Of a DNA stretch of 64,000 nt, positions 3,731-60,320 are shown one piece after another. The translations under genes and the position numbers were made by a program. The first letter of the stretch is position 1; the number at the start of each line of letters is the position of its first letter. The notes below the pieces were generated by a model. That model did no database searches. It was not told where the DNA came from and saw nothing but the letters and a program-made list of their open reading frames with translations. The stretch spans positions 1 through 64,000 of the forward strand of contig JALRME010000076.1 of NCBI GenBank assembly GCA_026120035.1, read 5' to 3'. Source of the stretch: Coleophoma eucalyptorum. Taxonomy: Eukaryota; Ascomycota; Leotiomycetes; Helotiales; Dermateaceae.

Positions 3731-4475
3731 TTAACAGAGACTAATAGGTGGTTGTAAGAAAAAAATCCAAATGGCTTGTCTTGTCCACCAACAGTCATCA
3801 TCTTGATTGATGGCTTGCATGATTTTCTTTCTAAGGCTTGAGTCCATCTTCAAGTCTTCTATAAGGAAAATATCAGTGATCTCTCTGCAAATATGGCGAT
3901 CAAACTTAGGGTGGCCTTGGAATGTCAGCACACGGCGTGGCCAATATACTCCTTGTATTTGGCAATGAGCACTTCTGCCTAGGATAATACAATTTGGAGG
4001 TAAAATCCCATTAGGACGTGATCCTGATGAACCAGCTGAATCCGCATGGGATTGGGGGGGTTTGAACTCGTTACATTACTGAACTCATCTACGAAATCCG
4101 ATGAGAGGGTGATACGCTGTACACCCATCTCCCACTCAATTCGTTTCACATCTAGCTCTAAAATAGTTTTGCAGAGAATTTGATGACCAAAAAAACATCC
4201 AAAAAAGCTTAATATAAGGCTCAAAATACCACACAGCCTTGATGAAAAGCTGCAAATTACATATATAGTTTTCATGTCTATCGTTAACGGAAGCAGCTGG
4301 AGTAAAAATTATTAATAGTATGAAGAAATATAACGTTATCATTTTGCTTACACGAACCAGTGATCACAAGAACATCCACGCCACTGAGTGATCTCGGGTA
4401 TTCTTCTTAAACCACATCGTAACTAGATATAACAGGTATAACGGAAGGCCCCTCCTTGTTTATTAAGATTTCTGA
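3731..4475 (-). pseudogene. Class-I glutamine amidotransferase-like pseudogene
   Basis: Reading the minus strand across frames gives most of a GATase1 domain of the fungal YLR126C type. The order is EGPSVIPVISSYDVV, then EEYPRSLSGVDVLVITGS, then (after a plausible 55-bp intron at about 4362-4308) SASVNDRHENYI, then the nucleophile-elbow region GCFFGHQIL, then a His-containing VHQDHVLMGF and finally RVLTFQGHPKFD. Lesions: a TAA after SYDVV, a frame change in the T-rich tract around 4190-4206, and another near 3980. The elbow normally reads G-I-C-F-G-H-Q; here the Cys sits one place too early and Phe occupies the nucleophile position. The C-terminal frame is intact to the stop at 3731. Family members hydrolyse glutamine or related gamma-glutamyl compounds. 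Degeneration is seen directly; past function is inferred. Confidence 0.78.
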
Positions 4476-7400: not shown

Positions 7401-7938
7401 ATCTCTAAGTTAAGTTAGCTAGGCTTGGACAGAAATTACAACTCAAGCACTGGGAAGAATAGTTGAAGCAGTCGAAGGCGAGTGGAGCCTCCCAGTAATT
7501 GAGGAGTATGGGATGCAGGTCACACGTTCTGAAGTCCCATAAATCTTGCAAGTAATAAGCACTAAAGCTTTCACTATAGTTCTTTCGTAAATTGCTCAGG
7601 TTATACTAACAATACTTATATAATAAATTGAATGTACGTAGTTACATGCTTCACGATTCTATTTAGTAGATTATTTATCCAGAGCTTTCAAACTTTCTCA
7701 TCAATTAATGGCTGGCTCTAAACTAAATATGCCATTCCACAGAATAAGCTGACCGCGCGCACACCGGATAATATTCCCCTTGGTAACCGAAGCTCCTTTC
7801 AATATTCCCCGAACGTTTATATTTGTCTATTAGGATGTCGTATTATTATTTGCCAATTCGTATGGCTTGAGAATGACAGGCTGTTGTTGGCTGCATTGGA
7901 TTAACTGAGAAATTTCCCATCTATTTGATTTAATGGGC
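4476..7938. other. 3.4 kb without a recognisable gene
   Basis: Only weak open frames are present. One stretch on the plus strand (4980-5150) reads like protein (KLGQHLLYAGGEYPVLKGYL) before frames break, and could be the tail of a lost gene, but no family was recognised. ORFs at 5486-5764, 6380-6664 and 6732-7043 (+) and 6172-6357 (-) have no motifs. AT-rich throughout 7.5-7.9 kb. Confidence 0.4.
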
Positions 7939-31445: not shown

Positions 31446-32050
31446 CTAATTAGCTATAACTACATCTGAAATAGCTGAATCAGATGATTCTATAGCCTCT
31501 TGACAGGTACGTGCATTATGGCCAGGCTTACCACAGACACCACAACACCGTACCCGTGTTTCTTGCTCTACCTGCTTATTTATATCCCTCTGATCTAGTC
31601 TAAGTTAGTAGGTCGTTCGCATCTTGTATAATAAGGGCTCCTCCAAGCTGTATACGTGTTTTTGAGCCCTCCAACGTTTGCTTAAGTCTTCATTTGACCT
31701 ACGTAGTATAGAGACCTCACTATGAAGAAGGGCTACCTCGTGCATCATTGCCTTCGTGTAAGGACACAGGTTTGATCAAAGGCAGAATAGAGGTGTTTGG
31801 AAGCACAATAACCTTATATTGACTGAATCCTATAGGTCTCATACGAAGGACACAAAAAAGATCAGAAGAAACAGAAGAAAAAGAACCAATTTCCATGTCC
31901 TGTCCCCTCAACATGCTTCCTCGGTCCGAAACCCTTCTGACTCGGGTCATACCCGCTTATGCATACTGTCATCGAGTCACGTGATCTGTGTTCCTGGATA
32001 ATGCAATGTCCTGGATTATCCAATTAATCAATCTGGGCAGGTCAGGTTCT
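31446..32050 (-). pseudogene. pogo-type DDE transposase C-terminal fragment
   Basis: The minus strand reads AMMHEVALLHSEVSILRRS, NEDLSKRWRAQKHVYSLEEP, and later QVEQETRVRCCGVCGKPGHN followed by ARTCQEAIE, ending at a stop (31446-31448). This is the coiled-coil plus CCHC zinc-knuckle tail typical of fungal pogo/Fot-like transposases. Upstream parts are frame-broken and the DDE core is missing. A second copy of the 5' half lies at 34.39-34.69 kb. A terminal repeat (31-32.1 kb) flanks the right side at about 32060-32105. Confidence 0.82.
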
Positions 32051-34389: not shown

Positions 34390-34690
34390 CACACTTTAAG
34401 ACACTCATTGTAAGGATATAGGTGAATCAAAGGCAAGATAGAGGTGTTTGGGAGCACAATAACCTTATTGACTGAATCCTATAGGTCTCGTACAAAGGAC
34501 ACAAAAAATATACGAAGAAACGGAAGAAAGAAACCAATTTCCATGTCATATCCCCTTAATATGCTTCCTGGGTCCGAAACCCTTCCGACTCGGGTCATAC
34601 TCGCTTATGCCTATTGTCCTGGTCAGGTGACTGGGTACTGGATAATCCAATGTTCTAGATTATTCAACTAAGTAGGGCAGGTTCTTGCAC
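34390..34690 (-). pseudogene. Second pogo transposase fragment
   Basis: About 300 bp match 31740-32050 in the same orientation with scattered substitutions and small indels (shared AGGTGTTTGGGAGCACAATA). It contains only the segment before the zinc knuckle. Either an independent insertion or a segmental copy of the 31.7-kb remnant. Confidence 0.75.
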
Positions 34691-35759
34691 TCGTACGTCT
34701 ATCGACCTCCTCTACTGAGCGGTCTAGCTTCTATCTATGCATACACCCATACACGCCGATAGAAGCACTGTAACTATAACATTAATATTACGCTCTTCGA
34801 AGACCGGCTTGTCCTATATCTGACGTCCCTAGATGACTGATGGGCGACGGCCATAATAAAGCTATGTTGCAAGTCCGTTGGCTATAGCAGCCGTGATTCC
34901 ACCATCCCCCTGATCATCCTAGGGAAAACCTTTCTAACATCGTTCTCTACGGTCCATACCTCCTAGACTTACAGACTTGTATGTTCTTCGAGTATTAAGT
35001 TACAGTAAGTTTATGCTTGATTTAGCAATACTAGACTGCCTCACCACTCTTCACTTCATGGGGTAGGAGTTCCCTAGATACGTACAGTATCACATCGACA
35101 CTTCGATATCACAGTGACTCAACCGAATATCAGTTTTAAACTTCGAAACATGCTTTGTTTATTTTTGCGTTGGAGCTCTACAGACTCGAATTCCACAGGT
35201 GGTAGATCTTCCAGATTCAGGATGAGTTGAAACAAGTTTTACTTTGGAAAGTTAGCGAAGTCCGACGATGAAATGGACGACTGTCGACGTTCAGAGACGC
35301 CATCACCCAACAATAGCATGCTCGACAACTGAGGTATATGAACTAGTCTAGATAAGTATCCAGATATTGATAGATAGATGTAGACGAATAAACAATGCGT
35401 TGATCTCTATCCAATGCAAAATACCAAAGCTTTATCACATTTCTCATACTTACATTTTGATTCTGAAGATTTACAACTGGCTGGCTAGAATTTGGGTATA
35501 ACACCAATCATTCCTAAGTTAGAGGCTACATTACCCACGAATCAGTCACTCATATTCTCCAGTTGAATTCATCGAATCTTGGACTCAAGTCAATTCTTAT
35601 GAAATAGCTTTGGATCAGATCTAAGATTAATTAATTAGTACCTACAGACGAACCCGTCTTCTTGTCTAACTTCAGTTTTCTGCCAAGCAGTCATCTGCGA
35701 GTTTGGGCTTGCCGAATCCTTGATCAGCCATTGGTTCGATATCGGAGATGGACTATCTG
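34691..35759. other. 1.1 kb intergenic, nothing recognised
   Basis: AT-rich with no open frame of note and no repeat matched elsewhere in the window. Confidence 0.4.
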
Positions 35760-36411
35760 CTATGGGAAATTTTGACAGGTTGCTAAATCCTCTACTTCAG
35801 TAGCGCAAATCGTATTATGATTACTTGCAAAGAACTCAGTAAAGAGATCGTCCTGTATGGCACAGTTAAGAGCCTTTGAATCGAGGCTTAAGGATTCGTA
35901 TAGACTATGATCCTGGAACAGAGTTGCAATTGTCGCGTAATTACTCGCACCCTCGGCTAGACGCTTTTCGAGGTCACATATTGTCATATTTTGGCAGCGG
36001 ATGGTGGCTGATAGGTCTCGATTAAGTTGACAAGTTCTTGAAAGTTCACCCGTATGTGCTATGCTTTGATTTTCAAGCTCTAATATACGTAACTTTTGGG
36101 CTTCGATAAAGTGATTTTGTGCTTCGCTGAGTTCTTTATATTTATGCATGATTTCATCTTCGTCTTCTATTTCTCGATATCTATCTTCGCATAGTTTTAT
36201 TCGAGCCTCAAGCCCGGTGAGCCGCTCCTCTCCTAAATTTATTCGCTGCGCCAATCTTCGTTCCAGCCGGCGACGATGCCTCCCAATCTTCCGTTGTGCA
36301 TCATCAACCTGGAAAGTAACGTGACTGGTAGGGCTTCTACTTCGATATACCTAAGAGTTTTGAGTATTGTTGCAATGCGGCGGGGAAGTCACTTACGTTG
36401 TCAAGTCTCAT
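35760..36411 (-). CDS. Coiled-coil hypothetical protein
   Basis: A tiny first exon (36411-36397, MRLDN) is joined by an 88-bp GT-AG intron to exon 2 (36308-35760), giving 187 residues in frame. The splice restores a continuous VDDAQRKIGRHRRRLERR before the long helix. Residues about 10-135 are almost entirely charged heptad-type sequence (LTGLEARIKLCEDRYREIED, KLRILELENQ), a long coiled coil; the C-terminus is acidic. Possibly a scaffold or regulatory protein; no family recognised. It diverges from the gene at 37062 across a region carrying a 17-bp tandem repeat. Confidence 0.65.
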
Positions 36412-37061
36412 GTTAGCGAAGTGCTCTCACGTCTGAAGAAGTGTTGATTTGTGATATGTTTGTATTTTTTCTTGGTTGTTGGCAATTTGAGATCACTGTA
36501 CCCAAACTACCTCATATACTACTTAATACTTTCATGATGTGACGCTTATGAATCTTCGTACCTGTACTACAGCTATGATGCTCTCTGAGCTTGGAATAGT
36601 GACTATAGTAATCTTACCATGAATAAACATAGCCTTTCCCATCTGTAATCGTCTCTATGGCTCTAACGTCGTCAGGTGCTGCGCATCGATGGAAGCATTA
36701 GATTATTGATGACATTGAAGTCTGGATGACATTGAAGTCTGGATGACATTGAAGTCTGGATGACATTGAAGTCTGGATTACATTGAAGTCTGGATGATAT
36801 TGAAGTCTGGACAATAGCTATATGTCATAAGTGACAGTGTAGATTCAGAAGTTATAGAGCTGACTATGCGGCATATAACGTGATACTTGACGAGCACAAC
36901 TGGGCAAAGTTTTAAAGCCTGTGGATGACCAAACCACAGGCCAAACTATATGAAGACGCTTTTTGTCACCTAAGAGGGAACATCAAATCGCAAGCGCGTC
37001 GATAAGATATAAGGCATCAAGCTGCTGAATTCACCTCCACCCCATCGTATCACTCGAAACC
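36412..37061. promoter_or_regulatory. Divergent promoter region
   Basis: Head-to-head spacing of 650 bp between two hypothetical genes; contains the 17-bp repeat array annotated separately. Confidence 0.45.
36708..36809 (+). repeat. 17-bp tandem repeat, six units
   Basis: GATGACATTGAAGTCTG is repeated six times without gaps: four perfect units, then one with GATTAC and one with GATGAT. Lies mid-way between two divergent genes. Confidence 0.95.
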
Positions 37062-37824
37062 ATGTTCAAACATCCCGCTGATTATCACGAGCAGCCAGAG
37101 AAGCGTCGTCGTGCAGAGGTATCTTTGAACCAACAGTCACTAGCTAAGACAGCGAACAAGCACGGAACCAGCAACACGCCAATGAAGACAAACTCCACAG
37201 TAGCAACGGCACCCACACAGCCGCCACCATCGACGTCGAACACTCCGTCGATAAGCCCATCGGCAACCCAGGCATCTAAGAGCACGTCCACCTTGGGAAA
37301 TGCCACAGCAGAGCCTCTAACAGAGAACAAAGTGGCTCCTGAGTCGAAAACTGGAGATTCGTCATCTCTCAAACCGTTACAGGCATCATCAACCCCCTCA
37401 TCTACACATGGGTGAGTATTTGGAAGTTTATAGATATTGTGATTTAAAAGCTGACATAGACTACAGGAAAACACCTCTCCTGAACGGGAACAATGAGCCA
37501 ATTTCAGATAGTTTATCCTCCGTCGATCACATCCCAAGTACTGATGACAAGCAAGTAATGCTTCTTCCTAAGCGGATTGAAAAGGATGCTGCCGAGAGTG
37601 CAACAGGAGATCATCACGACAACAGTTTGTGGGCCGCTATAGATGCTGTCGAAAAGCGGAAGGGATGCGATGGAGACCTACCGAAAAAGAAGTCGGCTAA
37701 ACGAACCGCGATGGTAAGCTTAAATTGCGGCTCAAGCGATGAAGATACTAAAGTCATTGTCACAATTGCAAAGAATGGTCTGGATACACGTTTTGAAATC
37801 ATTCAGGAGGGGTCAGAATCTTGA
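37062..37824 (+). CDS. Hypothetical basic/low-complexity protein, likely nuclear
   Basis: Two exons (37062-37411 and 37467-37824) flank a 55-bp GT-AG intron in phase 2, giving 235 residues. The N-terminus has QPEKRRRAEV and the C-terminal part DLPKKKSAKRTA, both plausible nuclear localisation signals. Residues 35-115 are Thr/Ser/Pro/Gln-rich and probably disordered; the last 30 residues (VIVTIAKNGLDTRFEII) could form a small beta structure. No enzyme motif. Regulation may involve the tandem repeat in the shared upstream region. Function unknown. Confidence 0.65.
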
Positions 37825-38870
37825 TTGTCAACGAAATTAAAGTAGAAGGGGTTGCACGATGTCTGTAGAAACCGGAATCAAAGTTTATGTCATATTTTGA
37901 CGAAAGACTGCCATCGCGTTGCCGTAATTGCTACATCCCATTTGCTTCTCGTATCAGTATCAGTTTGGGGGAGAAGACGGAGCCATGTTGCCCTCTAGGA
38001 GAGTAACTTGGTGGGAGAAGCCCGAATAAGCCTGTTGTAAATAGTACAGCTTGAATCATGGTTTTGGTTTCGGGAAAAGAAGTGATGGCGAGAATGACAT
38101 AGCATCGAGATGAATGAAGTGTGCGGGAAGAAGCGATTCGTAATAGAGCGTAATGCTTGTAGTTACGAAAGTTTAGTTAAGTTAGTTATATTTAAAATAT
38201 ATCCCCATAGCCACCACCAAGGGAGTTAATAGAGCTAAATATCATCGCCATTTAGGCCTGGACATAGCTTTATAACAGTTCTAACTTTTATAGCTAACTT
38301 ATGGAAGTTTCTTGACAGTCAGGAGGCTAGAGAATTTCCACTTCCGTCCCAAAACCTGGGCCCATTTGTTGGCGGATAGGGTCACCGAGTAGTTACATCG
38401 CTCGGGTAGCCTATGAACTTCGTCTAGACAAATCAATGTCCTCCGCTTCAAGAACTCAAGCCGTGCTGGGCTCGCACATTGAACTCGGGGTTCCACCACA
38501 AGAATTGCATCTTGCATGTGTTGATCCAATCGAGATCCTGGTTCACAAGTACCATGTCATACGCATAAACAATCTTTGCAATTCTGGAACGCCATTTGTT
38601 CACACGCAAAGCTGCGGCAAGGCGGTCATTAAGTTAGCATCTTGATAGGTTCACTCGACAGAGCTGCGTGGGTGGAAAGGTTAGCTCACAGCTTTCCAGG
38701 GCGGACGCGAGGGCCGAGAGAGAACGGCTGGCTTGCTGACTTGACATCAGTGCAGTCTGGATCAATCCAGCGTTCAGATTTAAAGACGTATGGCTCCTTA
38801 CAGATGCGCTCGCACTCGTCGTGTGTAATAGAATTCAGTCTATAACTACGTAATCTCTCGATGCATGTTC
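37825..38870. other. Intergenic with a decayed coding stretch on the minus strand
   Basis: Minus-strand frames at 38300-38720 carry protein-like pieces (LNDRLAAALRVNKWRSRIAK, IVYAYDMVLVNQDLDWIN, TLICLDEVHRLP) broken by stops. A coding relic is likely, family not recognised. Confidence 0.4.
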
Positions 38871-38874
38871 AACG

Positions 38875-39712
38875 TAACATCCGTCCCTGCGTGGGGAGAC
38901 GCACCCCGTGGCGAGACAAACCATCGGTACTTTGAATTCAATTGATTCTTGAAACCTGAATTTACTGAAAATTTCTATTATTTTTGTGTCAATCATATTG
39001 TGTGACCACTTCTGAACAGTCCAAACCCCTGCTACTCTGAAAATTACGATCACGTCGTCGCCACCGCGCCTAATTGCAGAGGGCGTCAATTCGGAGTAAA
39101 ATAGACCCTTCAGCCTACAACACCACCACAATCACTTTGTGCCTTTCAAACTAACAGAACAGTTTGATTTGGGTTTCTAAGCTTCGCCACGATACTAAAA
39201 AATCATTGTCAGCATTGTGGTGACTAGGAAGTGCTGTATCATGCGGCGTCGCCACATCAGTTGATACTTCCAATCAAGCGAACAAGGGTCCCTGATACTA
39301 GTTACATTAATTGCAGTGTAGGTTAGTAGAATCGCTTTGATATTACAGTATATAGGATTTTAAAATGAAATATTTCAAGAATAAGTTAGATACAACTTTT
39401 TCGTTTAGTACATCATGCTCGAGCGGGCTTCCACATTAATGTTAATTTTCAGAGTAGCCGGGGGCTTGGACTGTGAATTTTCAATGAATTCACAAACTTA
39501 GAATCAATTGAATTCAAAGTACCGATTGCACGTTCATCTTTTTCTTGTTACTGAGTGGTTTCCTCATCGAAAAATGGTCAAAGAAGTTTGTATATTAATA
39601 CTGTATTATTGTAACAATTTCGAAGATTTCTCAAGAAAAGATTTGTGATTTTTAAACTTTAGATTCGTCTGGTAACAGGGTGCGTTTCTGGATGCAGCGA
39701 CGGATGTTAGTG
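38875..39712. mobile_element. Dispersed repeat R1, copy 2: element with long inverted repeats
   Basis: Left end TAACATCCGTCCCTGCGTGG and GGAGACGCACCCCGTGGCG; the complement of the right end (39665-39712) reads TAACATCCGTCGCTGCATCC and AGAAACGCACCCTGTTACC. The inverted similarity continues inward: GGTACTTTGAATTCAATTGA occurs at 38926 and, inverted, near 39515, and CTACTCTGAAAATTA near 39030 and, inverted, 39450. The right arm has internal deletions. No transposase is encoded, so this is a non-autonomous foldback/MITE-type element of about 840 bp. Confidence 0.82.
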
Positions 39713-39722
39713 TGTCTCTTGC

Positions 39723-40340
39723 TTATACTGGTAGCGTAACTGTCTTGTTTGTAATATATAGCTTATAAACTTGGCCAGAATATTTCAGCTTAATCTGGTA
39801 ATCTATACCATGTTTAGAAATTGGTCCTGGTATCTCAGAGCCATAGTTTTCCTTGTCCCACTCTACTATGCCACCTCCGTATACCTTCACAGATGTCGAA
39901 ATAGTATAAGTATCTCCGCTATCAAACTTATCATGAAATAGTCGCTGAGGCCTTTTTATGGCTACTGTTCCGTGTGACGATGTTTTATGATACAAATTGT
40001 AGACGTTCAACTTAACGTTTAGACTTGTGAACTGAATTTCATAGTTTTCTTCGTTATATGAGTGAGGATGAAGGCAGTCTCTAAAGGTATCCCAGCCGGC
40101 CGTAGTAAACTTGCCAGTAAATAAAGTAGCTATTGCCAATACCGGATCATCACCCATAAGTGGCGTACAAAATTTATCATTAGGATCTATGACGAATTGG
40201 AGGTTTGTTCCAAGTATGAGAAACGTCATTCCAGATTTGCTCCATGTATCAAACGGTTCTGTTTTTCTGAAACAAAAATTTCCATATCGAGTCGAAATCT
40301 TTGCTGGAGCAGAGATAAGAAGCCATACTAGAAGAAACAC
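39723..40340 (-). CDS. Putative small secreted protein (205 residues), start codon uncertain
   Basis: An uninterrupted frame whose first residues FLLVWLLISAPAKIS look like a signal peptide, followed by a soluble protein of about 185 residues with few cysteines and several aromatic-rich beta-like stretches. The first codon is GTG preceded two codons earlier by TAA, and the next in-frame ATG is at residue 38, which would remove the signal. So either the ATG lies in an upstream exon (an AG directly precedes the TG), or the start has mutated from ATG to GTG. A TATATA tract sits at about 40433-40438. The stop lies 11 bp from the right end of the R1 element. Secretion and an effector-like role are inferences; no family recognised. 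Confidence 0.5.
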   Translation of the reverse strand: MFLLVWLLISAPAKISTRYGNFCFRKTEPFDTWSKSGMTFLILGTNLQFVIDPNDKFCTPLMGDDPVLAIATLFTGKFTTAGWDTFRDCLHPHSYNEENYEIQFTSLNVKLNVYNLYHKTSSHGTVAIKRPQRLFHDKFDSGDTYTISTSVKVYGGGIVEWDKENYGSEIPGPISKHGIDYQIKLKYSGQVYKLYITNKTVTLPV

Positions 40341-41782
40341 TTGTTAAAGAGTACTAAAGAGGAAGGACGGGTTGGATATAGTCTTTAGAAGAGAGTAGCT
40401 TAGATAAAAGAACTACTCTGCTTTACCTGAAGGTATATAAACTGACAGTTCTAGGATAACGGAGGGCTAATTCTCCTTCACGCAAACGAAAGAGGCCGCA
40501 AGACGAGTCAGAGATCATCTACGCTCCTAGTAGCAATTTCTGCTGTCCATCGTCTCAAATCACACCGTGACATTGTCTTGGGAGGTAGACTCGTCTACTA
40601 GAGCTCTACCGTCATGAATACCTTGATTGAACTCACCACAGCATTGGGTCTGATTATCTCGCTCGTAAACTTGCACTAGCATAAGGAACGGAGTCATCAG
40701 TTACTCAAAACGTCAGTCTAACATATCTTTACTGTATATTTAATTTTTTAACAGCACAATACAGTACAGTACTGTGCTGTGCTATAATGATATCGAATCT
40801 CAAAGAACATGTTAGAAGAAAGGTCATCATGAGTCTCAAAGGCGGCGCTTTCTGGTCTTACAACTTTGCGGTGCCCTACCAACTTGGAAAGGAGTAGGGG
40901 GTTCCACGAAATATTACGTGTAAAGTTTAAGTTTTTCCTAAAATGTCAGCAATGTACAATGGTCCGTCACTGTGAGGTGCAAATCTTTAAGCATGTCATC
41001 AATGATATTAGGCAGCTGCAGATAGAGCGCGTCATCAGCTAAAGTAGGAATGCAAGAAAAACAACTTGCTCGTACTGTACAGTACTTAGCTTTACTAGAA
41101 TTTCGCTTGAATAAACAGAAAGATGCAGCCTCAGCGAGAACTAACCAAGATAGCATCTACAAATCCCAACTTTGTAACGTCTCCAGCCTGAATCTGAAAA
41201 CAATCTTAGATTTTGGCGTCATTTACATTCCAAACTCTTCAATTGCTCGAATACTTCATTATCAATACCAAGAAATATTTGTACTCGTTTTTCATGGCCG
41301 AGATATCTGGCTTTTTCTTCTGCATCGCTGCTGTGCCAAGCAATACCAAATGCTTCCCCTATGTCGTATCATTGTGGTGAAAATTCCATCTCGACTGAAT
41401 TATTTAGTTTACCAATTGACCATGCTGATGTTATTGGACGAACAATTACTATTGTAAACAAAAGAGGAAGATTCCTGTATGGGCCTTCAATACGTGGAAA
41501 TGTCTCGTACCGACCGTCGGGTTTCTTAGGAAACTCAATAACTGAGAATGATCTTGCTAGATTCATAGTAGACTCATAGTATAGCCAAGCAGCGGTAAAC
41601 TAGACGAGACAGTGGCAGAAGCCCTCATAGTAGTATGTTAAGTCCTGAAAAATATGCGGTGCAAAGCATATTGATCGATGGTAGGGTGAAGGTATCAAAC
41701 AGCTTTCTGACAACCAAATTTTATATCAAGGCCAATGGAAACAAAGTATAACTTCCGAGATTGATTAAGGGATCTTCATAAA
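40341..41782. other. 1.4 kb without a recognised gene
   Basis: ORFs at 41050-41457 and 41361-41579 (+) are not recognisable, but may be eroded 5' exons of the lipoxygenase relic that follows. Confidence 0.35.
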
Positions 41783-43127
41783 TTACACCAATGACTTGAT
41801 GTTCTCAATGGAAAGGCTTTCGGTCAACCTATATTCAAGCAATCGATTGTAGCCATCAATCACACAGTTCGGTTCCAAATCGAGGAATTGATCGCCTATG
41901 AAGTCGCCAATACAACTGTTCACTCAATTTTTGAGTCAGGAATCTCTTTTATGTGGATTATGTTATCAATCAATCTTACAGAGGACTGAAAGATTTGCCG
42001 CGGCTTGTGACGCATATTTCTATATTCACCCTACAAGAAGAGGAGAACTCCTTCCTTTGGCTATTCGCACAAACAATGAAAATTAATTTAGTTTATACAC
42101 CTGCAGACTCATTCGATGATTGGCTACTGGCGAAAATGATGTTTAACCTGAATGATTTCTGGCATTCGCAATGGTATCAACTTTCTGGTACCCATAATGA
42201 AGCGACCTATAGGGGACCAAGTAGAGAGCATCCAGTGATGGCTCTCTTGGACAGACGTACACTAATCCTTATTCAAATATCAATATCGTTTGGCTTTCAT
42301 ATTAACTTGTCTAGTAACCCCTAGCTCTCGAAGGTTGGGAGGTTATATTGACCGGTTATTTGCTTTCAGTAGAAATGCCGCCGCCCAGACTACTTTAGAC
42401 ATTTATAATACAGGGATTTCTACAGCCTTCCAAGTAAACTACTTTTACGAAAATCTCGCAAGTCGTGGTCTAATTAACACAACGCATGGTTCTCGGATTA
42501 AACACTTCCCATTCTTCGAAGATGCATCAGTCATCTACACCGCTATACAAATATTTATGAAAACTTTTATAGACTCTTACTGTATACATCCCTCAACTTT
42601 TGCGCAGGATGAAGAGCTGCAAGCTTGGATGTTGGAATTTGTGCTTGCAGATATTGTAGATTTTCCAAAATCAGCTGACCGAAGAACACTCGTCGATATT
42701 CTTACACATATCGCTTTCTTGGGTAGCGCGATACACCAAACTCTCAATACAAATGACATTTCAGAAGCATCAGGCTTGCTACCGTTCCATCCATTCGCAC
42801 TATACCAGCCAATTCCGATAGCTGAGGATGTCCAAGATATTATCCCTTTCTTGCCTAATCTAACACAGTCAATTGGTCAGATAGGCTTGACTGCCCTCTT
42901 TGCACGCCCCGAATATGTCAATCCCAATCAATCTTTGACGCAAATGTTTGATGATGGACAAATGCTAACACGGATGAACAAGAGGATAGCAGAGGCAGCA
43001 CGCTTATTTTCAGGTGGAGATGAAGAACTTAAGCAAAGTTCCAGGACCTTTGCTGCCCAAGCATGGAATGCCATTTATTGGGAAAGCCCTTGATCCCGAG
43101 AGATCTTCATACTATCTTACTATTTGA
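41783..43127 (+). pseudogene. Lipoxygenase pseudogene (fungal, Mn-lipoxygenase-like)
   Basis: The plus strand, read across several frames, follows a fungal lipoxygenase: LMFSMERLSVN, NTTVHSIFESGI, DAYFYIHPTRRGELLPLAIR, LVYTPADSFDDWLLAKMMFN, then the metal-site helix WYQLSGTH and SREHPVMALLDR, RLFAFSRNAAAQTTLDIYNTG, FPFFEDASVIYTAI, VDILTHIAFLGSAIHQTLNT, SGLLPFHPFALYQPIP. The last frame ends WESP at 43093, but a neighbouring frame reads HGMPFIGKALDPERSSYYLT then Ile and stop (43125-43127), the normal C-terminus whose terminal residue binds the metal. So at least four frame changes exist, the last about 20 codons before the end. In the first metal-binding pair the leading His is Gln, and a few residues after TH are missing. 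The enzyme would oxygenate linoleic or linolenic acid. Confidence 0.85.
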
Positions 43128-43724
43128 TCTTGAAGATCCGAGCGAGTACTTCTAAATCTTGTTATCAAACGGCCCTCCCTGCAAGAAAGAGGTGTCTAGT
43201 GGCTGTGAGTTTGTGACTATGGTCAATCACCATACTCTGCTGCACACGGATGATTTCAATCACGTCCAAGGACTACAGATGTCTGAAAGTGAGGTTGCCG
43301 TACTAAGTTATTAGCCCACTGGCTAATGGAATCATGGATGATATAACCGCAGGAGGTTGAATACCAGAAATTAATATGGGAGAGAGAAAACCTCGACTTG
43401 ACGTGTATACGTCTCCTGAAAGAAACAATGAGCGAAGGTGGCCACTCAGCTCTCCTCTATGCAGACACAAACCGACCTCTCACTGACAACCACGCGCCGC
43501 GCCCACAAATTCCCGCATATTCCAAGCTCCTCGCGTGAAAAGTCTAAGTGACAATAGTTTTATTACTCGTTCAAATCGAGCTTTCAGGGCCGTAATTGTG
43601 CCACAAACAAGATTTTCCCATTGGAAGTATACTTATCTTTCAATTATAGCCTCTGGTTGAACTAATTTGATATAATGTCGTATTTCCTCTTGATATGTTT
43701 ATCACTAACTTACTAAACTTAGCT
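43128..43724. other. Intergenic
   Basis: No gene recognised between the two convergent pseudogenes. Confidence 0.4.
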
Positions 43725-46153: not shown

Positions 46154-48239
46154 TCAATACAGATTGTTAGGGCGTAGCAAACCATATAACGGAATCTCAT
46201 TGTCTCCGCGAGTTGGCCGAGTCTTCGGCCACTGATATCCATAGAGTTGACGGTGACGCAGATCTCTATGGTAGAGGCATGTAATTAGAGGAGATTTTAA
46301 AGTAAAACAGCCAGAATCTTGTGTAAACCTAGATTGATCACCTCTCCTGACACGCTTTGCCGAGGGTCCGTTCTTAATGTTGGAATTCTTTGAGATTTGA
46401 CCCGCATCTCTTTTGCGATTCGGCATAGTGTTGCAACCATGATTTGGTTGAGGCTGGATATCATGATAGTCTAGCTCGCAAGTTTCGCAAAGGCAGTCTT
46501 GATTGTCGTCTCCAAAGTATTCATCACCGTAGGATACGGTGATTTCCTGACCGGGTTGAATGTCCTTGATGGCAGTAATTTTCGCTCCAGAGGAGCTTTG
46601 ATCAAGCCGAGCGTTGGGATTACAGTCATGGTTGACGAAACGTGCAGGTCCAAGCATGAGCGACGTAATTTTTTTCCTATACGATTCCATGATACTGAAG
46701 TCGCTCCCATCCTGAGACAGCAGAGCTAGCTCTTCTTTGTGCAGGGGCACTGTAGTCCCGCAGAGATACCTGATCTCTTCACCGCGCAAAATGCGCTTCC
46801 GCGCTACAATCGAGGCTTCTTGCTTGGAAGCGGAGTATCTGTAGGTAGTCGATATCTCAAAGGGACAATCCTGTAGATAGATGTCAAGATACTTCCTCAT
46901 GTGACGATGGAAGTCCTTCACCTCACTAGGGGATCGAAAGCTCTCTGAGTATTGCTTCAGGCCGGGTAGCTTAAGAATCTGCGCCATCGCTTTCGGAAAA
47001 TCCCTCTGTAGTATTACGTTTTCGCGCAAGGCGGAGATCACATCATCGTGGACAAGAATGAGGGGCTGATATGACTTGCGAGCCTTACGAACTGTGGTCC
47101 AGTAGAGAGCCTGGGTAGCAAATTAGCCATAAATTACTTCTAAACAGAGTCGAAATCTTACATGATCCACGAGTACATCGGTAAGTCTGTCATCGTATTC
47201 ACACAGCCGGTCATATGTGAGACGATGAGCAGGTGGTTTCAAGTTGTAAAGTCGGGCAATTGCATCACAATCGCCTGGGTAGACGTAGTCAAACAGGGGT
47301 TTGAGCTTGGATGACGGCTCCTCTTTGCCAACCCAGAAGGTCTTGCCACCAAAGCTCCGAGCTGCGTCACGCAGATTTTTAACCAAACTCCGAATATTGT
47401 CGGATGTGGGAGTCATTCCAGCCACCAGGACGAGATCTGGACATTCCTCCACATCATCTTGCAGCGAATCTTGGATAGTATCTCCGTCCGGATCAGGCTC
47501 GTCGTACAGGAGAACATTGGGCCTCAGTAACCCAATTTCGAGCTTGCGTCGACCCTTTGAAATCCGTTCAACACTCCTCTCGAGGCAATTTGAACATGAG
47601 CGTAGTCCGGCACCCGGGAATGGCGGTGGCTCAAACTGGAACGTGTGGTCGCACCGTGTACATCTCAATTGGTCAACTCGCCCATGGAGGCGCACAGTAT
47701 TAGCCTCAAGCCTAGGAAGGGACTGCTCGAGACAGTCGATATTCAGTGTGTATTGGCGCATGAGTCGGTGCTCGTTCGCGAGCTCCTGCATGAGCTCATG
47801 AAATGGCGTTGGTTGGGTGGAATGTGCCTTCAGGTGATTGAACAGGCAGCTGATCGCAGAGTAGAACCTTGCACTCCTTGTGTGCGATGAAAGGAGTGCA
47901 AAGTCGAGGTCTGTCTGCTTTTTTATGCATCGAATATTGGGAACTAAATAGATTTAGGGTTTGAAGGAAACAGGATAGCGACAAGATCTTACATCCTGCA
48001 TTCACAGAAATGCCTGATCCGCTTACAACAACGATTTTCTGTCTCGATTTCAAGAGCTCCACCAATTGCAGTAAGTTTGCTGAGGTAGCGGGATCTTCAA
48101 GCACTATCGGATCGTCTGTCTTTCCGTCAGTAAGGTCAGAATGAGGGCCAAAAAGACGCACCATGCGTTCCTTTTTCACGAAATAATTCTGGTCGGCAAG
48201 AGAGATCAATTGGGTACTCCATGGTCGCTCCAGGTTCAC
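46154..48239 (-). CDS. Fusion of divergent sirtuin and SET9/Suv4-20-type histone H4K20 methyltransferase
   Basis: Exons 48239-47993, 47910-47162 and 47110-46154, with GT-AG introns of 82 and 51 bp, give 650 in-frame codons. Residues about 60-300 are a sirtuin: KIVVVSGSGIS (68-78), YTLNIDCLE (136-144), LHG with the catalytic-type His (157-159), four zinc Cys (166, 169, 188, 191), then GLLRPNVLLYDE. Its NAD-site motifs are changed (GAGIS to GSGIS, PDFR to LDFA, TQNID to TLNID). From about residue 308 the protein is SET9: LCEYDDRLTDVLVDH, ALYWTTVRKA, HMRKYLDIYLQDCPFEIST, GPARFVNHDC (486-495), YGD (526-528) and the CxCxxC post-SET (538-543). SET9 methylates H4 Lys20; sirtuins deacetylate lysines. 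No splice signal suggesting separation lies at the junction, which falls inside exon 2. The first codon is GTG; the in-frame ATG is at 48162-48164, or an upstream exon exists. Confidence 0.85.
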
Positions 48240-51129
48240 CTTTGGCTATCAAAGCAGTGGGTTGGGTTGACAGCATGATTGTAGCGAATTGATCGATATC
48301 TCACAAAGCAGGAAAGTTTGGGGGTGAGGGGGTGCTCTTATACTAGAACAGCACAGCCCTGATATCGACTCTCAGCTGCAGCATAGTATTCGAGGACTGG
48401 GGTGCCAACTCCTTCAGCCATACCGTTGGACCAGGGGTTGTTATCTGGTGTTTTTCCAGGCAGAGAGTGTATGGAGTCACCGCCACCCGATCTATACGTT
48501 CCACGGAGCAGCACCGGGTTTGAGGGTATGAAAGTTCACCAAAATCATCTCTAATAGTAGCCAAAACCTATGCGGTATTAGTAGGTAGGGGGTATGAATG
48601 GGACGAGGGGGGTTGGAAACTGGATTGAGGGCAACTCCATGAGCAAATTCCCAAGGGCGTTCGACCGGATTCGGGCCTCGCAGCAAAGCGAAGGACTTCA
48701 TGGTGGACGCCATCCTCGAAGAGCTGAAGAACCTCGCTATGCTGATCTCAGCAACCTGGAAGCGGGATGAATATCAGGCATGGTGTGTATAGAGTCTCGG
48801 GGACGAACAGTCCCCCCAAAACCCGAAGAAGCACTGTTCTGGGTCGTACATCGAGGATACGAATGCTCAATGCTCTTTCCCAAGAACAAGCATGAGCATA
48901 TCGAATTATAGTGGTGTCGACTGGTTGCCAGAAAGAAGATAATTGGGTCATTTCGCTTTCAGCGGAATGGTAAGATGCAACTCATCACCTTCCCGACGGC
49001 TTCACACACCTGTGCGAGCCTTTCTTTTCCGCTAGTGTTGACCAACATGAACAAGTCGGACTTCAACTCAGCTTCAATCGTCTTCACATCCAACTTCGCG
49101 CGATAACTTCTCCTGTAATGGACGAACCATCAAATGTCACGTCCGGCATCAAGCTCCCGCAAAATGATGTTTCTAGAAGTGGGGACTCTTGCCCTGCTGG
49201 ACAACGGGAATGGACGGGCTCATCACAGACCAGGGCAACTACCTAGTCCGATTGTAGTTCAGCTTTGTAGACAGGCTGACAATAAATTAAAACAGCATTC
49301 AGAAATCAAAGCCTTTCACAAGAACCTTCTACGATCGAACGAGTTACTCGACTGAGATTTGAATGCAAGGATTTTTAGCAGGAACAACTGCTGTGAGTTA
49401 AGGACATCCAGGCTCGGGAAAATGACGTGATTGAAAAGATCGAAGAGGTAAAATTCGACAAGGCCGCACACGTCGGGCAAGTCGGAGCAAAGCTCCTGGT
49501 AGCGGACAACCCTCAGAGCTGGGAGATTGACAACTTTCTGGGATGAAAGCAAACAACAGGGTGAGCTTACTGAAGGTGAAACGGCCTTCTCATTCATGCC
49601 TCGCACTACTGACAAAATTACAGTGATTGCAATTCAGGACAAGCTGGCCAGTATGGGAGGTCGTTTCTGTTCTGAGCGGCTTCTGCATTCTATGTTGAAG
49701 AGTATTGTGAAGAGATTACCAGTTGCCGCACATATGAGAGGCACTAAAGCATATATCTGGGTCCAAGAGACCGGGAATGATAAGGTATTTAAGCTTGGAG
49801 ATAATAGCCTTCGCAGTTCGGACAACGAGGCATAGCTGTGGAGGAGAGATCGTATTTTATGCCGTAGATGCCGAAGACTTGAAGGACGAGATGGAGCTTG
49901 AGGGTATGGACATAAGTGCAGAGGCCCACATGTCCGAGACACGAAGCCTCACCAGGGTGATCATGGTGGATCTAGTTCGGGAGGTTTTGGTTTGTCGGGA
50001 ATTAGGGATGACTGACCATATTCCCAGCATTACAATTACAGAGAGGAGGCCATAGTGAGCATTCAACGAAGCATGCCGAACGACATCCTGCCGTTTGTAA
50101 ACATTGTGGCAAGTACGGTAATTTGGAGGTAGGATTGGAGTAGAAATCGGGCGGTGACATCTTTCAGTGGGAATGGGCATGTGATAACCAGGGGGTGGTA
50201 ATGATGCAGTACCAACAAGTTCCTTCCTTTCAAGATTTTGCTCGTTAGCAAATGGCAGATGCATCGCAGAATAGCTTTCAATGGAAAATGACATAAGCAA
50301 TGTCGATGGCACTGCGATATGCTTTGTGATGTAATCATGACCTCGAACGTAGGAAATTCCATTGAAGCAGCCCAAGACAATAGGACTGCCTGACGGAGTC
50401 GGTCCCCTAGGATCCTCCCCGAGGTCTAGGCAGGATAACCAGAACCTACATTTAAGACTTAGTGCTCAAATTAAACAGTAAAGTATTTTACGCTTGCAAC
50501 CAGAAAGCAACCATTCAACGCAAAATACGACATGTACGAACACTTTGGGCTTACTGGATATATTGAGCTAGCTTTCTATTAGCTATCTCCCCCCCATATG
50601 TCGTTTGATACATCTGCGTCAAATCGGCAACTCCTTCATATTCATTTACCTCCACACCATCTCAGTTTACAGCAGCGTTTGCTCAGCTGTTGCAGTCATA
50701 AGTGCGGTAATCTGCTCCAGCAAGTTTGAGGATTCCTTAACATATACCCACGGCAGTCACCTCACGCCAACCTAACCCCGACCTCAAGTACACTCGCCCT
50801 CCCAACCTAATCTCCCCGTCTTGGTCCCTCCCTCCAAAATATCATCCACGGTCTCCGCACTCCCCGTACCTACCCTAACCTCAATCCCTTCTCCCTCATC
50901 AAAAACATCGCCACCCTAAGTAACACGCCTTCCAAAGAGCCTGCTCTCCTCTCCCCTTCCCTATTCCACCTCTCACCACTTCAATCCCGATTTTAGTCGC
51001 GCTTTTAAAGGCTTTGTAGCTGCCGTACAGCGGGATCGCAGGTGTGGACCGGCTCTCGATTTGTAGGGGGTAGGTTCGTACGCGTTTGGCGTCGCGATGA
51101 AGGGACTTGGGTCAGGGGTGTTCAGGGGA
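48240..51129. other. 2.9 kb of mostly unrecognised, partly coding-like sequence
   Basis: Minus frames at 48300-48713 (HRPIHTPYLLIPHRF-like, VLEYYAAAESRYQGCAVLV) and plus frames at 49134-50055 (DEMELEGMDISAEAHMSE) look like eroded protein, but no family was recognised. A 172-codon minus ORF at 49857-50375 overlaps the latter antisense. 50740-50990 is strikingly pyrimidine-rich on the plus strand and may encode a fragment (PFSLIKNIATLSNTPSKEPA). Confidence 0.35.
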
Positions 51130-51262
51130 GGTATACAATACACAGAAATAAAAATAAATAGAAATTTTAACGCGGTCACAGATTTGAAGTCGCTTGAACT
51201 TGAAGTACCTACGATTTGTCTCGCTACAGGGTGCGTCTCCCTACGTAGGGACAGACGTTAGT
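51130..51262 (-). repeat. Dispersed repeat R1, copy 3 (inverted terminal part)
   Basis: TTTGTCTCGCTACAGGGTGC and GTCTCCCTACGTAGGGACAG ACGTTAG at the right edge is the reverse complement of the left end of the 38.9-kb element; similarity continues leftwards for about 130 bp (complement AAAATTTCTATTTATTTTTA). A further end-like motif, CGCTACACAGGGATAGACGT, lies at about 51380-51400. Confidence 0.75.
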
Positions 51263-51903
51263 ACTTTCTCATGTTTCATACAACCAACACGAAAGCCAGC
51301 TTCATCAAAGTTGATTATATCCCTCTTTCTTCTAATACCTAGCTCTTTTACTAAGGTTATTTTATGGCACAGTGGGTTTTTCGCTACACAGGGATAGACG
51401 TTAGGTTGATCGATTTTATAACCCCTAAAACGAGCTATGGGCGCGGTGTCAGAAGGCAGGCAACTAAGCACCTCCTACCAATTCGCCCTTTACTGTATAC
51501 CAGTTTTCAACTAAGTTATATTATATCTTCTGGAAGATAAGCTGTGGGATCGATCTCAATTAAAACCAGGAGTGAAATTGAATTTGCTCCCATATCGCTG
51601 GCGGCTGGCACTTTCAGATGGTTGCTTACAGAACGTCATCTGTAACTAGTTGGTGATCTCGGCTATTCTTAGGAAAATCAATGAAATTGTTTGCTAATTA
51701 TTTGAATAAGTACGGAGTTATACTTCATTGTGAAGCTGTAAAATCGATACTGCATATGTTCTACTCTATACTTCATCAAACAAAAGGTTCTGTGCAGAAA
51801 CAAAAGACATGAAACTAAAGATAACATACTTAAAAGGACGCAAATTGATGATCAAAATAGTACTGGTTTGGTGCAAGGCTCATTTCTTGATTTATCAAGT
51901 GCA
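51263..51903. other. Intergenic
   Basis: Apart from the extra R1-end-like motif near 51380 nothing is recognised. Likely 3' flank of the SAP-domain gene. Confidence 0.4.
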
Positions 51904-53493
51904 TTAAGGGTCTGAAGTCTCTGTCGTTGGTTTTGCTACATTTGTAAAATTTGTTCCCTTATCAGAGTTTTTCTTTGCATCATCGTGAGTGTCATCAGGT
52001 GTACTTCCGCGAGTCTCTAGAGTAGGGATTCCAGGTGTACGTTCCCTTTCCCGACTGCTGTCACGACTGTCTGGAGTGTTGTCACGACTGTCTTGTAGCA
52101 CATTGTCGGATCTCTTCACCTTTGTGCCGTTAACTCGAGCAGTTGCAGGTGTACTTTCCCTATTATCTGGAGTGTTGTCACGACTGTCTTGGAGTATCTT
52201 CTCGTCCTCGCTTTCGACTTCCAATCCGGCCTCTTCGAGTTGCTTGTAACTGTCAGGGTGTTCTTGCTCAAGCCAAGCCTCCCATGCAGATTGCTCATAT
52301 TCTGCTGCACCCTTTACTAATTTAAGTCCCGCAGGATCTTTTTCAGGATCTTGAAATCCGGCAACCTTGAGCCAGTGAGTAAATGGCAGATGTTTTTTGA
52401 AGCGCACCCCCTCTCTCTCATAACTCATGATGATGTGAACGTGTCTGCGGTGTTTGCTTGCTACAATGCTCTTGATATCCTCCGTTGAGTTAGCAGGCAA
52501 GCTTTTAACCTTGTCTTCTCGTGATTTAGGTGACCTTTTCTCGAATACCTTGTCCATGGACAATCCCACCACTATTGGACGGGCAAAGCCAATACCAATG
52601 ATCTGCCGCGCTTCGACGGATGTTGTCTTTTTCTCAGTTTGGGTGTCTTCGGATTTTACACGGTTAATAGCCCAGTCGCCTGCTTCCGCAAAGCCCTCGT
52701 ACGCGCGAGCCTCAGCTAGTGTTACAACTCGCCAAATGGCCGCTTTAGTTGGACCACATGTGATCATAGCTCTTTTCATACCCGGGTCCGTCCATATAAC
52801 ACGTTTCAAAAGAATAGTTGGATCGCTTGGCGAGCTGTAGATGACATAGCCTTCTTGATCGTATGTCTTCGGTTTCGATAGAGACTCGAGTTTCTCGATA
52901 GCCTCCTGACTCTTATTCAGATCCTCTATTGAAGCTCCACTTTTAAGCAGTTCTACGAACTTCTTCTTCGCTTCATCCAATTTTTTCTTTGTACTTTCCT
53001 CCTCGGGTTTACCGCCGATTTGCATCTGCTTCAATTTGGCTAATGCTTGTTCGTACTCATCATCAAGGTTGTCGTCTCCTGTTCCTGAAGTAGCTGGGTT
53101 TTTATTATCACTTAGATTTCTCACAGATCCCTTCTTAGGTCCTCCGGTCTTGCCTCCGTTCAATTCTGCAGCATTGGGCTTCTCAACATCGGGTTTCTCA
53201 GCATCGGGTTTCTCATCATCCGGTTTCTTAGCATCGGGTTTCTCAGCATCGGGTTTCTCAGCATCGGGTTTCTCAGCATCGGGTTTCTCAGCATCGGGTT
53301 TCTCAGCATTGCCTGTAGCACCGGTCGTCTCAGTACCTTTCGCTCCCGCAGCAGCATTCTTGTTACGGGCATCTTTGAGTAGCTTAATGAGATCAAGCCT
53401 CAGTGCATTAGAGGGAAATTTGACATTTTCTGCATCGAGACCTTTTTTTAATTGGTCAACGGTCATCTTATCGATTGGGCGAGTGTCAGACAT
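51904..53493 (-). CDS. SAP-domain protein with a pentapeptide repeat tract
   Basis: Single 529-codon frame. Residues about 9-43 ([20 protein letters not shown] then [10 protein letters not shown]) fit a SAP motif, the helix-extended-helix that binds AT-rich DNA in chromatin and RNA-processing proteins. Next is a run of roughly nine A-E-K-P-D pentapeptides (residues about 63-107), encoded by a 15-bp tandem repeat at 53170-53310. Residues about 140-210 form a charged helix; 210-420 look like a folded domain ([40 protein letters not shown]) with an unidentified family. The tail repeats DSRDNTPD twice and is disordered. Probably nuclear. Its upstream region carries several ATGATGAC motifs (53704-53790). 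Confidence 0.75.
53170..53310 (-). repeat. 15-bp tandem repeat inside the SAP-domain gene
   Basis: GCATCGGGTTTCTCA is repeated head to tail (encoding A-E-K-P-D on the minus strand), with variants at the ends (AACATC, TCATCC). Unit length is a multiple of three, so copy number can change without breaking the frame. Confidence 0.92.
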
Positions 53494-58011: not shown

Positions 58012-60320
58012 ATGGTACCTGTATCACACAACAGACATAATAGCTTTGCGCCTCCTCGAGGAGAAAATCAAGTGAACTATTTTATAGATGGGTGTGAGTA
58101 TTTTCATGCTGTTGCGACGGCATTAGAATATGCGCGTTCAGAGATCTGGATCATGGACTGGTGGCTCTCTCCAGAGCTCTACCTGAGGAGACCACCATCT
58201 TCAAACGAACAATACCGCCTAGACCGGATGATACTGAACGCCGCGCAACGAGGGGTAAAAGTGTATGTTATCGTTTACAACGAAGTTCCTAGTGTCCTAT
58301 CTAGTAAGTGCTCCAACCTGTCTGCGAGAAACTTCAGCAAGTCGTAAAGCCTTTGGAGTGGAATACTAATGGAAGAATCCAGTCTGTTCTAAGCACACCA
58401 AAGCTGCACTAGAAGCTCTCCACAATAATGTTGCTGTACTTCAACATCCTGCTCATATCCCGAGTTTTCAAGACCACCACCTTGATGATATAGCATTCTA
58501 TTGGGCGCACCACGAAAAGTTGTGTCTAGTAGACACAGAGATTGCTTTTATGGGAGGTCTGGACCTCTGCTTTGGTCGATGGGATACCCATCAGCATCAA
58601 ATAGCGTATGGAGTTAGCTCTTTCTTAAAATCATTTCTGACATTTTTTAACAGCGACAACCATCCCTCTCAACAGGAAGCTAAAATTTGGCCTGGTCAGG
58701 ATTTCAATAACGGAAGAATTATGGATTTTGAAAATGTTGCTAAATTTTATAACAACGAGCTTGACAGAGCAACAAATTCAAGAATGGGCTGGTCTGATAT
58801 CTCACTCTCCATCAAAGGTCCTGCTGTTGAAGACCTCCGGGATCATTTCCTGACCAGATGGGACTGGATCTGTTCTCAACTAAACCTGCGAAGTATTGAA
58901 ACTAGATATGTAACTCCATCAAACGCGCTAAAGGTCCCAGAAGCTACAGCTACAGACAGCATCAGTAAGCCCGGTGCTACTTTACAAATACTTCGATCCT
59001 GCAGTCAGTGGAGCCACGGGATATCTACTGAAGTACCTGACTCCTTTGTTTCCCGTACGCCATGGAAAGCCTCCGCTAACAGTCTCATAGCACTCAATTC
59101 AAAACGCATACGTCGATGTCATTTATAAATCAGAACATTTCATATATATTGAGAATCAGTTCTTCATCACTGCTACGGGTAGTGAACAGAGCCCGATCCA
59201 AAACAGAGTGGGAGCAGCGATAGTTGAACGTGTGATTCGGGCTTATAAAACTGGTCAGAAGTACAAGATCATGATCTGCATACCTGCCGTGCCGGGGTTC
59301 CCTGGAGATCTCCATGATGAAAAGCAAAACGGTATCCTGGCTATTATGAACCTTCAGTACCGGTCAATATGCCGTGGAGGTCATAGTATCATGGAAAAGT
59401 TAGAGCAAGAAGGAGTTAAAGATATAGGGGAGTACATTCGCTTTTATAACCTTCGCAACTATGACCGGATTAATAACGCACGAGCGATTCGGAATAAACC
59501 AGGAGATATAGCTGCGTGGGGAAGCTTTGTAGAGAAGTATGGAGATATTAGCGATTCTATAAGCTCCTGCTATATGCTTGGCGGGCCACCACTCTCTTCT
59601 ATGCCTTGGGTGGCTGGCGATGAGACCGAGATGGATGCATTTGTCAGTGAGCAGTTATACATCCATTCCAAATGCCTAATCGCAGATGACCGAGTTGTTA
59701 TTATTGGAAGTGCCAATCTCAATGACAGGTCTCTTCTTGGAGACCACGACTCGGAGATTGCTGTGGTTGTGGAAGATGCGCCATCCGTAGCGTCAAGAAT
59801 GAACAGTCAACCATACGTGGTTTCGAAATTTGCCACTACCCTACGCCGAAGGCTATTTCGAAAGCATATGGGCCTTTTAGAGTCTCAGGATTTGACAAAG
59901 CTAGGGATGAGCCCTCTAGGGGTTGGGCCCGATAGTTACGACTGGGAATCTCAAGCTGATCTATCAGTTGAAGATCCGCTGTCGCCAGACTTTGATCTAT
60001 TATGGAATGGCACAGCAAAGACTAACACAAAAATCCTGGCCCATGTCTTCTCACCCGTGCCTTCCAACCAAGTTCGATGCTGGGAGGACTACGAGTTGTA
60101 CTATGGGGAATTATTTGGTAGCAGTCGCAAGCGTGCAAAATACGGCTATGGACACGTTGTAAAGCAAAATTTTCCGGGCGGTATCACTCAAATGAAGAAT
60201 ACTTTGGGCCAAGTAAGAGGTACCTTAGTAGAGATGCCATTGGATTTTTTGTGTAAAGTTGATGGCCTTGTAAAGAAAGGCTGGAGTTACAATAGGTTGA
60301 CAGAGACCATCTATTCCTAG
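58012..60320 (+). CDS. Phospholipase D
   Basis: Three exons (58012-58303, 58383-59032, 59091-60320) with GT-AG introns of 79 and 58 bp give 723 residues in frame. Two HKD motifs are intact: HEKLCLVD-type HxKxxxxD (residues 141-148), followed by IAFMGGLDLCFGRWD, and HSKCLIADD (506-514) followed by IIGSANLNDRSLLGDHDSEI. The region EHSIQNAYVDVIYKSEHFIY then IENQF, before the second half, is also typical. PLD enzymes cleave phosphatidylcholine to phosphatidic acid and choline, acting on membrane traffic and signalling. The protein lacks PX and PH domains, as in many fungal PLDs of this size. It diverges from the Smr gene. Confidence 0.92.

Follow-up and report, generated by a model that had tools for sequence, protein, structure and literature searches.

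Gene model of the sirtuin-Set9 fusion

The window, that is, the whole stretch of 64,000 nucleotides of Coleophoma eucalyptorum DNA analysed here, lies in a 66,239-bp contig (C75) of a genome assembly of 45.26 Mb in 101 contigs. On its minus strand, positions 46154-48276 hold a single spliced frame with three introns and a start codon at 48276-48274. This frame encodes a protein of 658 aa in which a sirtuin domain is followed, with a near-zero linker, by a complete KMT5/SUV4-20 (Set9) unit. A second fused copy was found on contig C52, at about 131514-132672. The features of the gene in the window are the following:

48335 to 48342, minus strand: TATA-like element TATAAGAG, 66 bases upstream of the ATG, named by resemblance only
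48162 to 48276, minus strand: exon 1, 38 codons plus 1 base, its ATG and frame shared with the C52 copy; dN/dS 0.16 over 38 codons
48116 to 48161, minus strand: intron 1, 46 bp, GTGCGT...ACAG, aligned with GTGAGT...GCTAAC...ACAG in the C52 copy
47993 to 48115, minus strand: exon 2, start of the sirtuin domain, to GSGISVNAG, with SIR2 beginning at residue 71 of 658, at 48020
47944 to 47992, minus strand: intron 2, 49 bp, GT-AG, phase 1, within the codon before the P of FPNIR
47162 to 47943, minus strand: exon 3, 782 bp, with the remaining sirtuin domain, the junction (~47230) and the initial 23 residues of the KMT5 N-domain
47111 to 47161, minus strand: intron 3, 51 bp, GT-AG, phase 0 after LVDH
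46154 to 47110, minus strand: exon 4, with the remaining KMT5 N-domain, SET, post-SET, C-terminal tail and stop codon
47417 to 48020, minus strand: sirtuin domain, SIR2 PF02146, Pfam E 1.2e-15, residues 71-255, spanning intron 2, with degenerate catalytic motifs
46478 to 47230, minus strand: KMT5/SUV4-20 catalytic unit (N-domain, SET, post-SET CxCxxC), complete, spanning intron 3
46526 to 46810, minus strand: SET domain PF00856, Pfam E 4.5e-13, residues 441-535, with NHDC at 46633 and YGD
46220 to 46246, minus strand: C-terminal motif LYGYQWPKT, found by tblastn, the counterpart of LYGFLWPKT in core SET9

The initial annotation had described one frame of 650 codons kept open by two GT-AG introns. 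Both of these introns and the fused frame were recovered, and the model was corrected to three introns, a start at 48276 and 658 aa. The frame upstream of 48160, previously taken as coding, was replaced by exon 1 (48276-48162) and intron 1, which were included in the gene model because the start codon and reading frame of exon 1, with a short intron after it, are preserved in the C52 copy. At the place aligned with the TATA-like TATAAGAG, the C52 copy reads TATAAAAG.

A domain search of the predicted protein had been proposed as a check on the fusion, and both SIR2 and SET were found above the Pfam curated cut-offs in the 658-aa protein, with nearly the same outcome in a 636-aa reading, which is the model before correction and the query to which the phmmer residue numbers given below refer. 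Moreover, all the motifs first listed for the protein (GSGIS, NID, LHG, CxxC...CxxC, NHDC, YGD and CxCxxC) are present. With a simple codon-usage score for which five core open frames served as training set, the annotated frame came first among the three forward frames in each of the five pieces tested; the scores were low (-0.044 to 0.147), reverse frames scored slightly higher in the short exons 1 and 2, and the support given to the model was weak.

Junction and origin of the fusion

The sirtuin part ends in ...DCDAIARLYNL (residue 314), and four residues later, at residue 319, begins HRLTYDRLCEYDD, which is the counterpart of core SET9 residues ~11-23. The junction had been placed near 47235 within exon 2; it does lie inside one exon, at ~47230, and this is exon 3 of the corrected model. 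The frame running from the sirtuin to Set9 is open through the junction in the window sequence, in agreement with what had been claimed. Translation of the Set9 part alone would leave its N-domain (from ~318) incomplete, as no methionine occurs between residues 256 and 382.

These observations bear on whether a false single frame was produced from two neighbouring genes or by misassembly, which we regard as highly improbable: the contig is short (66,239 bp) and repeat-rich, as would suit such an artefact, but the junction falls inside one 782-bp exon, the Set9 part does not have its own start methionine until residue 382, and C52 repeats the part order, the strand and the 5′ flank, although the junction falls in its missing middle. 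Misassembly in particular was rejected because the second copy, with the same part order, is carried by an independent contig. The fusion is also more than a chance association, since low E-values link each half to a known family and their order recurs on a second contig. The sirtuin-Set9 fusion is real.

The introns of each half can be traced to a separate gene of the same genome. The position of intron 3 and its phase 0 after LVDH are identical in core SET9 on contig C17, and the position and phase 1 of intron 2, before the P of (F/I)P, are identical in a core sirtuin on contig C24, whose 229-residue C-terminal tail is absent from the fused protein. As the introns of the parent genes were kept in each half, the halves were most likely joined as DNA, with introns retained, rather than through retroposition. 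By this route, a truncated Hst-type sirtuin gene would have been joined as DNA, introns included, to the start of a SET9/KMT5 gene, and the fused gene would afterwards have been copied inside a repeat-rich, accessory-like part of the genome.

The SET half

Fungal SET9/KMT5, such as Set9 of S. pombe and SET-10 of N. crassa, is the H4K20 methyltransferase. The SET half of the fused protein had been described as a full SET9-type methyltransferase, and this was borne out by a phmmer match to 3rq4 (human SUV420H2) that runs from the N-domain to the post-SET (E 1.7e-35, residues ~295-531 of the 636-aa query); over the same residues, matches to 4au7 (E 2.3e-35) and 7yrd (E 6.9e-34) were obtained. In fact, the homology with KMT5B/C, SUV4-20 and Set9 spans the N-domain, SET and post-SET together, and NHDC, YGD and the post-SET CxCxxC are intact and aligned with those of core SET9, KMT5B and KMT5C. 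Of the columns invariant in core SET9 (C17), human KMT5C and human KMT5B, 45 out of 54 are kept. By sequence, the SET half is SUV4-20/KMT5B-C-like, not PR-Set7/KMT5A.

Identities with human KMT5C amounted to 79/231 for the fused protein versus 72/232 for core SET9, and those with human KMT5B to 78/232 versus 70/234. It was thus ruled out that the SET half is a recent, fast-decaying copy of core SET9, as its distance to human KMT5C/B is no greater than that of core SET9. Compared with the fused copy, core SET9 (L022) lies at a slightly greater distance from human KMT5C, and it reads FANHDCQSN where the fused copy and the human KMT5s read F(V/I)NHDCxPN.

When the genome was searched with the fused protein, only weak SET matches on contigs C10 (E 1.7e-6) and C13 (E 4.6e-4) were found beyond core SET9 on C17 and the C75 and C52 copies. 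By sequence, therefore, the genes of H4K20 methyltransferase type are core SET9, the fused gene on C75 and the broken fused gene on C52, and the family is not single-copy in this genome.

The sirtuin half

The motifs GAGxS, (I)PDFR with the cofactor loop, QN(I)D, HG and GTS of sirtuins have roles in NAD binding and catalysis, and in the fused sirtuin this NAD-dependent deacylase motif set is incomplete. The fused protein scores 58.3 bits against the SIR2 profile (cut-off 24), its zinc CxxC...CxxC is aligned, and LHG, NID and the four zinc cysteines are retained, with the His, Asn and Asp of the site. The remaining motifs have changed from GAG to GSG, from IPDFRS to FPNIRC, from QNID to LNID and from GTSL to GMTP, and the cofactor-loop GLF/Y is missing. 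The initial annotation had pointed out neither these changes nor the core SET9, the core sirtuins and the second fused copy elsewhere in the genome.

The sirtuin half was compared with four sirtuins of the same genome, on contigs C24, C3, C57 and C14, with which its identity is 33.5%, 30.5%, 22.3% and 25.6%, respectively, an order also obtained in the own-genome search. From their signatures, we tentatively assign C24 and C3 to the Hst3/Hst4 class and C57 and C14 to the Sir2/Hst2 class, the comparison being one within a single genome. Of 46 columns invariant in these four sirtuins, 30 are kept in the fused protein, and the 16 lost columns include the A of GAG, the D and F of PDFR, the G-L of the cofactor loop, the Q of QNID and the T-S-L of GTSL. 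As a yardstick, the four sirtuins were left out one at a time: the sirtuin set aside retains 46 of the 51-63 columns that do not vary among the remaining three, versus 32-35 of these for the fused protein. A sirtuin match on contig C33 and four stretches on contig C46 were left out of this count; read by eye, the C33 match keeps GAG, the D of the PDFR motif, QN and GTSL. On contig C46, at 655947-656479, two adjacent sirtuin-like stretches with internal stops were observed, possibly a sirtuin relic or exons with introns.

On the basis of the motif roles and of this comparison within one genome, the sirtuin half is probably catalytically inactive; a residual activity is possible, given the kept LHG and NID. 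Judged by sequence, the fusion is unusual and its halves are in mixed states, with a well-kept SET and degenerate sirtuin motifs.

It had been proposed that deacetylation is followed by methylation in one polypeptide, the sirtuin half deacetylating H4K16 or H3K56 and the SET half then methylating H4K20 on the same nucleosome. The retention of LHG, NID and all four zinc cysteines would agree with such a two-step enzyme, and parallels are provided by animal SIRT2, which deacetylates H4K16ac and also recruits and deacetylates PR-Set7 (as far as the available text of PMC13281814, which covers the pair, reports), and by H3K56, the substrate of fungal Hst3/Hst4-type sirtuins (Hst3/Hst4 and HstD are H3K56 deacetylases in the part of PMC10454297 at hand). 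The changes or losses in GAG, PDFR, the cofactor loop, QNID and GTSL weigh against it, and the mechanism is weakened because the residues lost are kept by the four other aligned sirtuins; we consider it improbable, and less likely than a pseudo-sirtuin. The analogy with SirT2 and PR-Set7 on which the proposal drew proved imprecise as well, with a sirtuin half closest to C24 and C3 and a SET half of the SUV4-20/KMT5B-C rather than the PR-Set7/KMT5A type.

The second copy and its divergence

The C52 copy presents the 5′ flank, exon 1, exon 2 and the end from SET to tail, in the same order and on the same strand as the gene on C75, with 74.8% and 78.4% DNA identity in a two-piece alignment. It lacks the middle part, to which the sirtuin core and the junction belong, and also carries stops and frameshifts. 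The comparable parts, from which codons with gaps and two with stops were left out, comprised 275 codons with a dN of 0.194, a dS of 0.527 and a dN/dS of 0.37 (bootstrap 95% 0.26-0.53), a value averaged over both branches, one of whose copies (C52) is dead, and silent on exon 3, which falls outside the comparison because the C52 copy is devoid of the sirtuin core. This ratio points to purifying selection on the pair. By parts, exon 1 showed a dN of 0.19, a dS of 1.19 and a dN/dS of 0.16 (38 codons), and the dN/dS was 0.28 in exon 2 (40 codons), 0.38 in the SET core (77 codons) and 0.55 in the C-terminal tail (120 codons), the last indicating weak constraint.

Differences between the copies amounted to 58/284 at first, 46/281 at second and 80/282 at third codon positions, and to 65/233 in the 5′ flank, from which second codon positions departed with a Fisher p of 0.0018. 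Aligned intron sites differed at 10/54, below both third positions and the 5′ flank; this low intron divergence is unlike a simple neutral yardstick, and the yardstick is noisy. The divergence of the pair is best explained by constraint on coding sequence during much of the period that followed the duplication, and the dN/dS of the pair could reflect past, not present, function.

In a rival reading, the gene is a fossil in the making, that is, a once-functional duplicate of an accessory region which has become dispensable and is decaying as the C52 copy did. We judge this rather unlikely, with a chance that still deserves weight. It would be in line with the loss of catalytic motifs in the sirtuin half, the broken sister copy, the other partial duplicates on C75 and the weak constraint on the C-terminal tail (dN/dS 0.55), and is opposed by the intact 658-codon frame with its clean introns, by a SET half whose distance to human KMT5C/B does not exceed that of core SET9 and by the dN/dS of 0.16 and 0.28 over the 38 and 40 codons of exons 1 and 2.

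Genomic setting

Contig C75 carries numerous short interspersed repeats and partial duplicates of pieces of contigs C52, C65, C61 and C48, mostly 73-82% identical and in two cases 66-70%, as found in a search that covered the window except positions 40001-41999. For example, window positions 3718-4436, 6417-7761, 35033-37841, 38874-39305 and 42000-43135 match stretches of C65, C52 and C61, mostly at 73-82% identity. Within the last of these, a lipoxygenase-like frame was recognised (PF00305, E 3.1e-10), with a 76% identical stretch at C52:14920-16117. Several duplicated pieces are common to C75 and C52, as if these were related accessory-like regions. C75 is possibly a repeat-rich, lineage-specific compartment.

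The first 115 bases of the window (1-115) are a repeat that recurs in many contigs with 79-99% identity, among them C37, C12, C10, C39, C84 and C58, where it sits at a contig end or close to one; a search of the window for the telomere repeat (TTAGGG)2 with at most one mismatch found none. Interspersed repeats of ~150 and ~55 bases at 51108-51270 and 51348-51407 occur on many contigs, the ~55-base one mostly on C52, C65, C72, C86 and C49. A pair of direct repeats at 31817-31970 and 34466-34618, ~2,650 bases apart and 85-88% identical, are possibly the ends of an old mobile element. At 53139-53339, a 15-base tandem repeat of about ten units lies within a frame that has HeH/LEM and extensin-like matches. 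At 58370-60320, phospholipase D motifs occur in two frames that overlap and of which the second has 50-55% identity with C30; the two are probably one gene with an intron, or a broken one. No Rfam family reached its gathering score.

Proposed function and significance

We hold it moderately probable that the fusion took place at the DNA level and was later copied, and that its product is a second working H4K20 methyltransferase equipped, for targeting or sensing, with a sirtuin module that is probably inactive. Such a protein would act beside core SET9, with a SET half predicted to bind S-adenosylmethionine and to methylate H4K20. For the sirtuin half, the prediction is that NAD-dependent deacetylation has been lost and that this half serves as a rigid N-terminal module by which the methyltransferase is positioned, held in check or regulated; it might bind acetylated histone tails, nucleosomes or a core-sirtuin partner. 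Expression, H4K20 activity, sirtuin inactivity and a targeting role of the fused protein are inferred, and what was observed is its anatomy, the dN/dS of the comparable parts and the state of its motifs.

A bolder and distinctly doubtful proposal is that, as an accessory-region H4K20 methyltransferase, the protein would use the dead sirtuin as a reader of acetyl-lysine or NAD, so that H4K20 methylation would be guided by acetylation or metabolic state, and that the accessory DNA in which its gene lies may be stabilised by it. For Zymoseptoria, the accessible part of PMC10553808 gives an accessory chromosome loss of ~3% in the wild type versus 58% without kmt5.

KMT5 is described as single in fungi (PMC10553808, PMC9224773, in the sections available), SET as the only domain of SUV4-20-family proteins (PMC2474616, likewise) and SET9 homologues in an Aspergillus set as SET-only (PMC9676040, likewise). 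A second KMT5 with a built-in sirtuin would be an exception both to the single fungal KMT5 and to the SET-only rule, as far as the available parts of these sources state them. Moreover, the fused protein would offer a natural test of the coupling between acetylation and H4K20 methylation. If C75 is accessory DNA, H4K20 would join the marks whose writers are duplicated in accessory DNA, and if the sirtuin part is non-catalytic, it would illustrate how an enzyme fold can become a regulator or reader.

Comparison with known systems

In the open-licence PubMed Central literature searched, represented largely by titles and the beginnings of abstracts, no description of a sirtuin-Set9 fusion was found, in line with the initial annotation, which knew of none, and searches of the same literature for inactive sirtuins and for Hst4 with Set9 gave none either. 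Relatives of the fusion were also sought by pattern scans in viral contigs, with 4 and 24 stretches and none confirmed, and in prokaryote genome contigs, with 47 stretches and none confirmed, no fungal collection being among those scanned.

The fused protein resembles fungal SET9/KMT5 in its complete N-domain, SET and post-SET, in the intron position of core SET9 and in the C-terminal LYG..WPKT, and differs from it by the added amino-terminal sirtuin, by a shortened tail and in being a second copy. Similarly, the sirtuins that we take to be of the Hst3/Hst4 type (C24 and C3) are the closest of the same-genome sirtuins compared, with zinc cysteines, LHG and NID in common and, in the case of C24, also an intron position and phase; unlike them, the fused protein is devoid of PDFR, the cofactor loop, the Q of QNID and GTSL.

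In animals, SIRT2 and PR-Set7 (KMT5A) are likewise a sirtuin and an H4K20 methyltransferase that work jointly, but they are separate proteins from other subclasses of both families, and the sirtuin is active (PMC13281814, in the text available). In the context of accessory genomes, Kmt6 encoded by an accessory chromosome of Fusarium oxysporum and the histone modifiers cited for Metarhizium accessory chromosomes (PMC12774646) are comparable as extra histone methyltransferase copies in a dispensable part of the genome. They differ in being an H3K27 methyltransferase (Kmt6) or an unspecified enzyme, and the accessible portion of that source makes no mention of a sirtuin fusion. Finally, SIR8 of early-branching animals, which combines CAP-C with Sir2, has an actin-binding partner, present in about half of the SIR8 sequences, and is predicted to have kept NAD binding, in contrast with the protein described here; according to the part of PMC9486876 available, it is nevertheless, like the sirtuin-Set9 protein, a natural sirtuin fusion.
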